Assembly (NCBI GenBank): GCA_016192455.1
Contig: JACPUC010000006.1
Location: 186,001-250,000, forward strand
Reading direction: 5' to 3'
Source of the DNA: Candidatus Tectimicrobiota bacterium
GTDB lineage: Bacteria > JACPUC01
Length of the DNA: 64,000 nucleotides
The notes below the pieces were generated by a model that saw only the letters and a program-made list of their open reading frames with translations, was not told the DNA's origin and did no database searches. Both the position numbers and the translations under genes were made by a program. Positions 41,605 to 46,966 of this stretch are shown piece after piece (position 1 is the first letter of the stretch; each line of letters opens with the position of its first letter).

Positions 41605-41852
41605 AAAAAGGTTTATGAGGCGCGGGCAAGTCGGCTTCGCAAAGGGCGGCGTGTCGGCCCCGCGCGGCGGCCCGCCTTTTGATGAACCGCCGCATGCCGC
41701 GGCGGCGCGCCGGGGTCCGCGTCAACAGAGGGAGTGGGCGGTGGCTGAGCTTGGGAGCGCCCCGGCGCCGCAGCGTAGGCTCTGCGCCGCCACCACTGAT
41801 CGCGCAAGGACTGCACGCCATCTCATTTGATGACCGCGGAGGGAGCAAACCG

Positions 41853-42092
41853 ATGGCCGATTCGATTACCATGTACTCCACCACCTGGTGAGCCGCCTGC
41901 AGGGTGGCCAAACGGGTTTTGGACCAGCTTGGTGTCGAGTATCGCGTGATTGACGTGGAAGAGGATGAAGAGGCGGCGCGGCGCGTCATGGAGCAGAACA
42001 AGGGTAATCGGACCGTGCCGACGTTCCAGATCGACGGCGCCTGGTACACGAATCCCGATCCGGCGACCCTCGAGCGGTTGGTGCGTGGTTGA
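41853..42092 (+). CDS. selenocysteine-containing glutaredoxin/mycoredoxin (UxxC)
   Basis: A 79-residue thiol-disulfide oxidoreductase if the in-frame TGA at 41889-41891 is read as selenocysteine. The residues are MADSITMYSTTW, then UGA, then AACRVAKRVLDQLG. In mycoredoxin/glutaredoxin relatives the position after T-T-W is the first Cys of CxxC, so UGA replaces exactly the nucleophilic Cys, giving U13-A-A-C16. The downstream part has VEYRVIDVEEDEEAA, the cis-Pro motif NRTVPTFQIDG and a normal end. The ATG follows GGAGGGAG. A SECIS-like hairpin starts 11 nt after the UGA. Read normally, the gene would yield a useless 12-residue peptide. Sec glutaredoxins are known in a few bacteria. A null mutation or base error is the alternative. 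Confidence 0.83.
41903..41925 (+). promoter_or_regulatory. bacterial SECIS-like hairpin
   Basis: GGT (41903-41905), bulged GG, CCAAA (41908-41912), loop CGGGT (41913-41917), TTTGG (41918-41922), ACC (41923-41925). This gives an eight-pair stem with a two-nucleotide bulge and a five-base loop with G at its second position. The loop starts 22 nt after the UGA, within the distance known for bacterial SECIS elements that recruit SelB. A competing six-pair stem directly after the UGA (41892-41908) is possible. Confidence 0.6.
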
Positions 42093-42195: not shown

Positions 42196-42453
42196 ATGCG
42201 GGTGACGGTGAAGTTCTTCGCGGCGCTCCGGGAGGTGGTGGGAAGCCGCGAACTGCAGCTCCAACTTGACGACGGCAGCACGGTGGCCAGTCTGCTCGAG
42301 CGTCTCAGCCGCGAGTATCCCCGCCTGGGGGCGCTCTGTCAGGCAGCCGCCCCGACGGTGAACCAGGAGTACAGCTCGCTGGGCGCCGAGCTGCACGAGG
42401 GAGACGAGGTGGTGTTCATCCCCCCGGTGAGTGGAGGCTGCGATGATCTGTAG
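42196..42453 (+). CDS. moaD: MoaD-type small sulfur carrier with four residues after Gly-Gly
   Basis: An 85-residue ubiquitin-fold protein that carries sulfur as a C-terminal thiocarboxylate to MoaE for molybdopterin synthesis. MRVTVKFFAALREVVGSRE and EGDEVVFIPPVSGG match MoaD. Unusually the Gly-Gly (residues 80-81) is followed by CDDL. Standard MoaD proteins end at Gly-Gly, so this one would need trimming, or the tail reflects the 11-bp overlap with moaE. The moaE ribosome site GGAGG is formed by the Gly-Gly codons themselves. Confidence 0.85.
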   Translation: MRVTVKFFAALREVVGSRELQLQLDDGSTVASLLERLSREYPRLGALCQAAAPTVNQEYSSLGAELHEGDEVVFIPPVSGGCDDL

Positions 42454-42892
42454 GATCACCAGAGACAAGATCGACACCCCGGCACTCCTGGAGGCGGTGA
42501 AGCATCCCGAAGCGGGGGCGGTCCTGGCATTTGAAGGGATCGCGCGCAACAACTCGCTCGGGCGGCGCGTTCTCTACCTGGTGTACGACGCCTACCCGGA
42601 AATGGCCGAGAAGAAGCTGCGGCAGATCGGCGAGGAGATCGCCGCCAAGTGGGGCATCACCCGGCTGGCGATGGTGCACCGCATCGGGCGCCTGGAGATC
42701 AGCGAGGCGAGCCTGGTGATCGCGCTGGCGTCGGCGCACCGCGCCGATGGGTTTGCGGCCTGCCGCTACGCCCTGGAGCGCATCAAGGCGATCCTGCCGG
42801 TATGGAAGAAAGAGGTGTGGGAAAACGGTGAGGAGTGGATCGAGGGGAAGGACTTCGCCCCCTTCGACCAGGAGGCGGCCCTGAAACGCTGA
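42443..42892 (+). CDS. moaE: molybdopterin synthase catalytic subunit MoaE
   Basis: A 149-residue protein that, with thiocarboxylated MoaD, inserts the dithiolene sulfurs into precursor Z. Recognised segments: RITRDKIDTPALLEAV, PEAGAVLAFEGIARNNSLGRRVLYL, MVHRIGRLEISEASLVIALASAHR, and the catalytic Lys region ERIKAILPVWKKE. The ATG at 42443 has a GGAGG 5 bp upstream; GTG 42431 would add four residues and lacks a site. It overlaps moaD by 11 bp. Confidence 0.94.
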   Translation: MICRITRDKIDTPALLEAVKHPEAGAVLAFEGIARNNSLGRRVLYLVYDAYPEMAEKKLRQIGEEIAAKWGITRLAMVHRIGRLEISEASLVIALASAHRADGFAACRYALERIKAILPVWKKEVWENGEEWIEGKDFAPFDQEAALKR

Positions 42893-43049
42893 CGGCTGGG
42901 TCGCTGGGGAAGGCTGCGCTCCATCCATTCCCGAGGGCGGGAGGGTGGCCGTGCCCGGCGCCGCGGCTGGAGGATTGGCCACCCTGGTGGTGGAGAAGCT
43001 GCGGCGGCATCTCGGATACGCACGGCATCGGCAAGGAGCCCTGAGCAGC

Positions 43050-43886
43050 ATGCCCAAATTCGCCGATCTTCACATGCACTCGACCTGCTCCGATGGCCAG
43101 CGCTCGCCCGCCGAGATGGTGCGCGCCGCGGCCCAGGTCGGCCTGGACGCCATCAGCCTGACGGACCACGATGAGGTCGGCGGCCTGGACGAGGCGATCG
43201 CCGAGGGACGCGCCTGCGGAGTTGAGGTGATTCCCGGCATCGAGCTCAGCGTCATTATGGACGGCCGGGACATCCATCTCCTCGGCTATTTCTTCGATCA
43301 CCACGACCTGGAGCTGCGGGACTTCATCCGGCGCTTCAATGAGTGCCGCCTTCAGCGGGTGCATGCGATGGTGCGGCGCCTGGCGGAGCTGGGCGCGCCC
43401 CTGGAGGTGGAGGCGGTGCTGGCGAAGTCGACGCATGGCGCCATCGGCAGGCCGCACGTCGCCGCGGCGCTCCTCGAGGCCGGCCACGTCGCCTCGGTGT
43501 CCGAGGCGTTCGAGCGCTTCATCGGCAATGACGGACCGGCCTACGTCGCCAAGTATCCCTTCACCCCGGAGGAGGGCGTGCAGCTTATCCACCGCCTCGG
43601 TGGGGTGACCTCCCTGGCTCACCCAGGCTTGTACCCCGACGACGGCATCGTCGAGCGGTTTGTCACGGTCGGCGTGGACGGCCTGGAAATCGAACATCCG
43701 AAGCATACGGAGTCCCAGCGCTCGCGGTTTTACAGGATCGCCCGCGAGCATGGCCTGCTGGTGACTGGAGGCTCCGATTGCCATGGCGATCGCTTCGGTC
43801 TCCAAAGTCTCGGCGGCTTGAAAATCCCCTATGCCAGGGTGGAGGCCCTGCGGGAACGCGCCGCGCGCGTCGACACCCAGTCGTGA
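43050..43886 (+). CDS. PHP-domain phosphoesterase (first of two)
   Basis: A 278-residue PHP-family metallo-phosphoesterase. Metal ligands are in ADLHMHSTCSDG, LTDHDEVGGLDEA, the Glu in IPGIELSV, the DIHLLGYFFD strand, and the C-terminal TGGSDCHGDR. The family includes 3',5'-nucleoside bisphosphate phosphatase/RNase AM (YciV), histidinol phosphatase and others. ATG 43050 follows AAGGAG and removes an unconserved N-terminal extension. A second, related gene follows after 68 bp. Confidence 0.88.
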   Translation: MPKFADLHMHSTCSDGQRSPAEMVRAAAQVGLDAISLTDHDEVGGLDEAIAEGRACGVEVIPGIELSVIMDGRDIHLLGYFFDHHDLELRDFIRRFNECRLQRVHAMVRRLAELGAPLEVEAVLAKSTHGAIGRPHVAAALLEAGHVASVSEAFERFIGNDGPAYVAKYPFTPEEGVQLIHRLGGVTSLAHPGLYPDDGIVERFVTVGVDGLEIEHPKHTESQRSRFYRIAREHGLLVTGGSDCHGDRFGLQSLGGLKIPYARVEALRERAARVDTQS

Positions 43887-43954
43887 GCGATGCGCCGGGC
43901 CGGCCTGGCGGCAGGCCGGATGACCTCAATCCGTGAGGAGAGCGAGCAAACTGG

Positions 43955-44851
43955 ATGGCAAGTATCGTTGATCTGCACATGCATTCCTACTACTCCGATG
44001 GCAGCTTCAGCCCGCGGGCGCTGGTGGCGCGTGGGGCCGTCCTCGGCCTGCGCTACCTGGCGATCACCGATCACGATGAGGTGCAGGCGCTCCCCGAGGC
44101 GCGCGCCGCCGGCGCCGAGCATGGCGTGGCGATCATCCCCGGCATCGAGATTTCGACGCGCTACGACAACCTCGGCCTGCACATCCTCGGCTACTGCTTC
44201 GACGCGGACCACCCCGCCATGCGGGCCCTCGTGGCCCAGCAGGCGAGGAGCCGCAACGAGCGCGCGGAGCAGATCGTGGCGAAGTTTACCGACCTCGGCT
44301 TCGGGCTCGACTTCGACGCCATCGCCGCGCACGCCCGGGGCGCCCTCTCGCAGCCCCTCATCGTGCATGCCCTGCTGGCGAGCGAGCGCAACCGGCAGCT
44401 CCTGCGGCGGCGCGGGCACGAGGCGACGCACGAGACGCTCTACCGGCACTACCTGTCGCGCGGCGGGCCGGCCTACGTGCCGAAATTCAGCCCCGACAGC
44501 CGCGAGGCCATCGACCTCCTTCATACCTGCGGCGGCGTGGCGGTTCTGGCGCACCCTTCGGTGGACCTCTGGCCCGACCGCCATGACCTCCTCAATGACC
44601 TGGCGGAGGCCGGCCTCGATGGTCTGGAGGTTTACAGCAGCAACCACAGCGAGGAGATGACTGCAGTCTACGTCCGCTGCGCCCGCGAGTATGGGCTCCT
44701 CATGACCGGCGGCAGCGATTTCCATGGCGAGGCGGTGCCCGAGTTCGACCTAGGCAGCGGCTGCAAGGGGAACCTCGACATGGGCGTGGAGATCGTCGAG
44801 GACCTCTACCAGCGACACGCGGACTTTCTCGCGGGGCGCGCGGCGGGGTAA
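43955..44851 (+). CDS. PHP-domain phosphoesterase (second of two)
   Basis: A 298-residue paralogue of the upstream PHP gene: VDLHMHSYYSDGSFSPRALV, ITDHDEVQALPEA, IPGIEISTRYDNLGLHILGY, VAVLAHPSVDL, MTGGSDFHGE. All metal-binding positions are kept, so it is probably active. Likely a YciV-type phosphatase. The two copies differ widely in sequence, which suggests different substrates and an old duplication. It lies between moaE and moaB, though PHP enzymes have no known place in molybdopterin synthesis. Confidence 0.88.
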   Translation: MASIVDLHMHSYYSDGSFSPRALVARGAVLGLRYLAITDHDEVQALPEARAAGAEHGVAIIPGIEISTRYDNLGLHILGYCFDADHPAMRALVAQQARSRNERAEQIVAKFTDLGFGLDFDAIAAHARGALSQPLIVHALLASERNRQLLRRRGHEATHETLYRHYLSRGGPAYVPKFSPDSREAIDLLHTCGGVAVLAHPSVDLWPDRHDLLNDLAEAGLDGLEVYSSNHSEEMTAVYVRCAREYGLLMTGGSDFHGEAVPEFDLGSGCKGNLDMGVEIVEDLYQRHADFLAGRAAG

Positions 44852-44933
44852 AGGCGGCGGAGCCGGCGCGGGGGGTTCGTCACTGCGCCGTCCCGAAGCG
44901 GCACCAGGCGGGAGAGCAGCGCAGGAGGCGCGG

Positions 44934-45433
<500 letters not shown>

Positions 45434-45437
<4 letters not shown>

Positions 45438-46639
45438 GGCCCCTGAAAGAGCTCATCTCCCTGGGAGAAGCGCGCGGCATCTGGGAAGCGGCGGCGAAGC
45501 CACTGCGGCGAACCGAAACGGTCTCCACGCTGCAGGCGCTGCATCGCATCCTGGCCCAGCCGCTGGAGGCCCAGCTCGATGTGCCCGGCTTCGCGCGCTC
45601 CGCCATGGACGGCTATGCCCTGCGCTCGAGCGACTCCTTGCCGGCAGAGAAGAATCGTCCCCTGCGGCTGCGCTGCGTCGAGCGCATCTACACCGGTCAG
45701 GTGCCGCAGCGCCCCATCCGGCCGGGAGAATGCGCCGAGATCGCCACCGGCGCCATCCTGCCCGAGGGGGCCGATGCCGTCATCATGGTGGAGCAAACCG
45801 AGGCGGAAGGGGACGAGGTGCTCATCTACCAGGCCCTCGTGCCGCGCGCCAACGTCATCCAGCGTGGCGCGGACATCGCCATGGGAACTGTGGTGCTTCA
45901 GGAGGGGGCCTTCATCAACCCTAGCCGCCTGGGGGTGCTCTGCGCCCTCGGGGTGCAGCAGGTGACCGTGTACGACCGGCCGCGCGTGGCGATCATCCCC
46001 ACCGGCGGCGAGGTGGTGCGACCCGGTGAGGAGCTGCAGCGGGGGCAGGTCTACGACATCAACTCGTACACCCTCGCCAGCATCGTCCTCGAGGCCGGCG
46101 GCGAACCCTTCATCCACCCCATCGTCGAGGATCACCAGGAGAAGATCATCGCCGCCATGGAGTCCTGCCAGGAGACCGACCTCTTCGTCTTCTCCGGCGG
46201 CTCCTCGGTGGGGACGCGCGATCTGATCCTCGACATCTGCACCCGCCTCGGCGAGGTGCTCTTCCCCGGCATCGCCGTGAAGCCGGGGAAGCCGACGCTC
46301 CTCTCCACCTGGGGCGAAAAGCTCATCCTGGGGATGCCGGGCAACCCCACCTCCTGCCTCTCGAACGCCTACATGATCCTCATGCCGGTCATCCGGCGCC
46401 TGGGCCGTCTGCCCGAGGTGCACCGCCAGGTGGCCCACTACCCGCTGAGCCGTCGCCAGCCCTCCACCCTTGGGCGGCATGAGTTCCTCACCGTGCGCAT
46501 CGCCAATGGCGAAGCCATGCCGGTCTTCAAGTCGTCCGGCGACATCACCAGCATGTCCCTCGCCGATGGCTACATCGAGATCGCGGCCAATGTCGACCTC
46601 ATCGAGAAGGGGGAGCGGGTCGCGGTGACGTTCCTGTAG
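45434..46639 (+). CDS. moeA: molybdopterin molybdenumtransferase MoeA
   Basis: A 401-residue enzyme that inserts molybdate into adenylated molybdopterin. FARSAMDGYALRS, TGAILPEGADAVIMVEQ, PTGGEVVRPGEELQRGQVYDINSYTL, FSGGSSVGTRDL and FPGIAVKPGKPTLLS are family signatures. The C-terminal domain ends IEKGERVAVTFL. Directly coupled to moaB. Confidence 0.94.
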
Positions 46640-46699
46640 AAGATGCCGCGGGACTCGTCGTTGAAGGCCTGACGATGCCGCGCCGCAGAGACATGTTCA

Positions 46700-46966
46700 A
46701 TGTTCCGCGAGCCTGAGCGTGCGGGGCTGAAGGAGAGGGTCGAAGAGGTCCTGCGCACCATCCGACCCTACCTGGCGGCCGACGGCGGCAATATCGAGCT
46801 GGTGGCGGTGGAGGGCGGCTGCGTCAAGGTCCGTTTGCTGGGGGCTTGCGCCGGCTGTCCGAGCTCGCGGGAGACGCTGCGCTTCGGCGTCGAGGCGACC
46901 CTCAAGGAGTACGTGCCGGAAATCTCCGCGGTGATCGCGGTGGAGGCGGGTGGGTGTTCGTCGTGA
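46700..46966 (+). CDS. NifU C-terminal-domain iron-sulfur scaffold protein
   Basis: An 88-residue Nfu-type protein with VEEVLRTIRPYLAADGGNIELV and the cluster-binding Cys pair in LLGACAGCPSS (Cys50, Cys53). It is the stand-alone NifU_C domain that carries a 4Fe-4S cluster between two subunits for transfer to targets. Candidate users nearby include the radical-SAM CofG/CofH. Short spacing to moeA (60 bp) suggests the same transcript. Confidence 0.9.
   Translation: MFREPERAGLKERVEEVLRTIRPYLAADGGNIELVAVEGGCVKVRLLGACAGCPSSRETLRFGVEATLKEYVPEISAVIAVEAGGCSS

Follow-up and report, generated by a model that had tools for sequence, protein, structure and literature searches.

A glutaredoxin-like reading frame in the window (the whole stretch of 64,000 nucleotides analyzed) carries a single TGA where related proteins have a redox-active cysteine. 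The question was whether this codon is decoded as selenocysteine (Sec), terminates translation, or was introduced by a sequencing error. Judged from the sequence, the gene very probably encodes a small Sec-containing thiol-disulfide oxidoreductase with a glutaredoxin fold, belonging to a mycoredoxin-like branch, in which UGA 41889 is read as Sec.

Gene structure and genomic context

The frame was uninterrupted from ATG 41853 to the TGA at 42090-42092, save for the single TGA at 41889-41891. Full read-through gave the product MADSITMYSTTWUAACRVAKRVLDQLGVEYRVIDVEEDEEAARRVMEQNKGNRTVPTFQIDGAWYTNPDPATLERLVRG, with the active site W-Sec-A-A-Cys (WUAAC). The following features were assigned.

41838..41845 (+): Shine-Dalgarno-like sequence GGAGGGAG, 5' of ATG 41853, assigned from the sequence
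41853..42092 (+): predicted Sec-containing glutaredoxin/mycoredoxin-like gene, 79 aa, Sec13 (UxxC), assigned by PF00462, TIGR02200 and alignment
41889..41891 (+): in-frame TGA, predicted Sec13, at the N-terminal redox Cys; in this alignment column the Cys relatives have Cys and nine others have TGA
41898..41900 (+): TGC, predicted resolving Cys16 of UxxC, assigned from sequence and alignment
41901..41930 (+): candidate bacterial SECIS hairpin with the upper stem CCAAA/UUUGG, the loop CGGGU and a lower stem interrupted by a single-base bulge
42090..42092 (+): second TGA, which is the true stop codon; homology stops there and read-through beyond it is non-homologous

A standard ORF caller returned only a 62-aa GTG-started fragment (41904-42092) in which the redox motif is missing. 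The original prediction had described a frame open except for one TGA at the first Cys of CxxC, with the rest of the fold (C16, T-V-P region) intact, and had expected ordinary annotation to truncate the gene. Sequence and alignment of relatives agree on the first point; the alignment also confirmed Cys16 and the T-V-P cis-proline region, the cis-proline lying within N-R-T-V-P-T; and the 62-aa remnant bears out the truncation.

Shortly 3' of the Sec-glutaredoxin gene, moaD and moaE are found on the same strand. The region 42196-46966 of this strand holds the molybdenum-cofactor genes moaD, moaE, mogA/moaB-like and moeA together with a NifU-like gene. Co-transcription of the Sec-glutaredoxin gene with the molybdenum-cofactor genes may occur.

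Protein family

The Pfam Glutaredoxin model PF00462 matched residues 5-62 on both flanks of the TGA (5e-16), with a score of 59.1 bits above the gathering cut-off of 22.9. The best NCBIfam model was mycoredoxin TIGR02200, whose curated cut-off of 89.5 bits was missed by the window protein (77.2 bits). With the UXX-star models NF041212, NF041114, NF041211 and NF047338 it scored far under every cut-off. In an alignment with relatives drawn from a broad bacterial sample, the redox Cys column held TGA in the window gene and in nine other homologues, and the nearest relatives of the window protein were Cys proteins. The alignment with Cys homologues that had been proposed as a check places the TGA on the catalytic Cys column. 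The frame had been called glutaredoxin/mycoredoxin; the fold stands, supported by PF00462, while the sequence does not clearly mark the protein as a classical GSH glutaredoxin and groups it with mycoredoxin-like proteins.

Selenocysteine genes of the host genome

The assembly is a draft of 4.46 Mb in 31 contigs, 88% complete, and is the sole genome of its phylum in the genome set searched. It contains selA (491 bits) and the adjoining selB (366 bits), a selC gene for tRNA-Sec (75.5 bits, anticodon TCA), and selD (389 bits; contig C3, L018), the catalytic residue of which is itself encoded by TGA (VAGUAAK; GUAAK). Judged by this motif, SelD is itself a selenoprotein. Absence of selA, selB, selC and selD from the genome had been named beforehand as evidence against the prediction; all four are present. 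Around the window gene, about one gene in two ends in TGA, as does gltX directly before cysS. Since TGA is the normal stop in neighbouring genes, UGA is not reassigned in this genome, and reassignment was ruled out as an explanation.

Other selenoprotein genes were sampled by family, so that the counts are not exhaustive. An in-frame TGA was present in 8 of 13 matches to the AhpC-TSA family (peroxiredoxin/TlpA superfamily), listed here.

AhpC-TSA/TlpA/deiodinase-like genes with a redox-Cys TGA (eight): L088, L090, L092, L093, L094, L095, L096, L098

Their motifs are FUGDC, TPGUE, WUKSC, WUPYC (twice), WUPKU (with two Sec), WUQSC and a deiodinase-like TUPP; as read from these motifs, the TGAs sit on the redox Cys. 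A YeeE/YedE sulfur transporter (contig C31, L076:906) has an in-frame TGA in GYUPGT. A published review gives the motif GUxSG for the Sec form of this family, and the Sec position in the two motifs may differ. Because eight peroxiredoxin/TlpA members and YeeE/YedE carry TGA at the expected Cys, UGA recoding is routine in this genome, which is rich in predicted selenoproteins. The best copy of FdhA in the genome has no TGA, and for some ten or more genes of the molybdopterin oxidoreductase family no TGA was reported inside the match. An apparent in-frame TGA of cysteinyl-tRNA synthetase was rejected, since it simply terminates either gltX or cysS itself.

Candidate SECIS hairpin

The bSECIS model specifies a loop of 3-9 nt, an upper stem of 4-16 bp, a G in the first two loop positions, a UGA-to-loop distance of 16-37 nt and an MFE of at most -7.5 kcal/mol (PMC13188914). 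The window hairpin lies within these limits for spacing, loop G and MFE: its apical loop is located 21 nt past UGA 41889, and the constrained fold gave -15.6 kcal/mol (-10.4 kcal/mol for the 30-nt hairpin in isolation). The upper stem by itself is weak (-1.7 kcal/mol). Hairpins compliant with the model were found in 9/9 UGA homologues at spacings of 21-23 and at the same codons as in the window gene, whereas 0/26 Cys homologues had a stem of 5 bp or more with a spacing of 20-23, a contrast of 10 versus 0 that is not fully independent, since the UGA homologues are related to each other. A hairpin as good as the observed one arose in 1.7% of synonymous recodings of the window gene. Compared with shuffled sequence, the hairpin region had no extra stability (z about 0), the SECIS did not stand out by its fold z-score, and an Rfam search around the gene gave no match. 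Most other selenoprotein genes of the genome have hairpins at spacings of 16-21 with loops containing G (SelD, CGGGG; YeeE, CGGGCG; peroxiredoxins, CGGCG and GGUCG); for the peroxiredoxin L090, such a hairpin was not found.

Alternative explanations

An ordinary Cys mycoredoxin-like gene could have acquired the TGA by a sequencing or assembly error from TGC or TGT. A single base change would suffice, the assembly is a draft, and the nearest relatives are Cys proteins. Such an error would have to strike precisely the catalytic Cys codon. It would also have to occur in a genome that has the complete set of Sec genes and in which at least nine further genes carry TGA at the redox Cys, and beside a hairpin positioned as in the nine other UGA homologues; it is considered very unlikely. 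Even less probable is a pseudogene in which the TGA truly ends translation early. UGA does serve as a normal stop in this genome too, but the TGA is the sole lesion and falls on the very codon at which Sec would be expected. On both flanks the frame, the composition and the motifs are intact, and a Shine-Dalgarno-like site is present.

The shorter 62-aa protein starting at GTG 41904, with the TGA ending an unrelated upstream frame, is the form listed by the ORF caller. Residues 5-12 ahead of the TGA match the first strand of glutaredoxins, and the short protein would lack the redox motif, so that the chance of this explanation is regarded as negligible. The reading of UGA 41889 as Sec in a UxxC selenoprotein, as originally proposed, is supported by the Sec genes, the TGA in the Cys column, the hairpin and the other redox-Cys TGAs of the genome. 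The locus is judged to be a real selenoprotein gene, probably mis-annotated.

Phylogeny and distribution

In a tree of 40 rows, a mycoredoxin-like clade of 19 rows was recovered with a support of 97/95. The window protein was its only Sec row; unlike it, the other nine Sec rows all fell into a clade of YruB/Grx-type proteins. Besides the window protein, the Sec rows of this tree are relatives recovered in this analysis, as distinct from the published Sec-Grx sequences. As the Sec rows are split between the clades and the supported branches require at least two label changes (Cys/Sec), an independent Cys-to-Sec switch is suggested. Chances are about even that this is a previously undescribed independent switch in the mycoredoxin-like branch, giving a W-Sec-x-x-Cys redoxin whose host apparently lacks MshC. 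No description of a Sec mycoredoxin was found in the titles and abstracts of the literature searched.

A second W-U-x-x-C mycoredoxin-like gene was not found by DNA pattern in 84,980 species and IMG/VR. The pattern was Y-x-[ST]-x-W-U-x-x-C...[VI]-P-T, the Cys version of which finds only 8 of the 18 Cys members of the clade. Its 10 matches in the 84,980 species and 4 in IMG/VR were all rejected as chance hits, judged by translation. A related-locus search with the window protein as sole query returned none. No close relative was present in the genome set searched. Another W-U-x-x-C glutaredoxin-like type (L051, L052), with YMTDWUPHC and with G-I-P-L/V replacing V-P-T, was observed in two genomes, both belonging to a single other family.

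Predicted reaction and electron donor

For Sec insertion, redox chemistry, electron donor and substrate, we infer the following course. The Sec-tRNA (anticodon TCA), brought by SelB, would decode UGA 41889, and the stem-loop shortly 3' within the coding sequence would direct the insertion. The selenolate of Sec13 would then attack a disulfide or mixed disulfide, Cys16 would resolve the selenenyl-sulfide, and some reductase or low-molecular-weight thiol would subsequently reduce the protein. The assignment of Sec13 as the attacking residue and Cys16 as the resolving thiol follows established glutaredoxin chemistry. No MshC above the cut-off was found in the 88% complete assembly; the best match to the MshC model was cysteinyl-tRNA synthetase (309 bits versus a cut-off of 485.1). 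Likewise, a search of this assembly for glutamate-cysteine ligase of the GCS2 type, as distinct from the PF04262 type, gave no match.

Relation to known selenoproteins and biological meaning

UxxC Sec-glutaredoxins (PF00462), which include WP_010943784.1 and the Grx selenoprotein described by Kim et al. 2011, are a listed selenoprotein family (PMC13188914, PMC9312934, PMC1794560). The family has been experimentally verified in bacteria; that it is not new in itself had been stated at the outset, and it is indeed an accepted one. The window protein shares with these proteins the fold, Sec as the first residue of UxxC and, as predicted, a bacterial SECIS-directed insertion. On the evidence of fold, Sec position and putative recoding signals, it is a member of the Sec-glutaredoxin family, and its novelty is modest.

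The best sequence match was to mycoredoxin (TIGR02200 GlrX_actino; M. tuberculosis Rv3198.1, PDB 2lqo). Y-[ST]-T-x-W-[C/U]-x-x-C and G-N-R-T-V-P-T...T-N-P are common to both, whereas the window protein differs in having Sec for Cys, in its score (77 bits versus 89.5) and in a host without MshC above the cut-off. With the glutaredoxin-like UXX-star selenoproteins (NF041212, NF041114, NF041211, NF047338) it has in common Sec at the N-terminal position; unlike them, it retains the second Cys (UxxC), and it is not a member of these families.

The general picture of Sec use is unchanged by the window gene. Reading the UGA as Sec would restore the active site, which the truncated gene of an ordinary annotation would lack. 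The gene likely represents a Cys-to-Sec conversion of its own, in another branch than the glutaredoxins to which the other recovered Sec forms belong, and together with the other predicted selenoproteins it points to heavy use of selenocysteine in the thiol redox enzymes of a barely sampled phylum.
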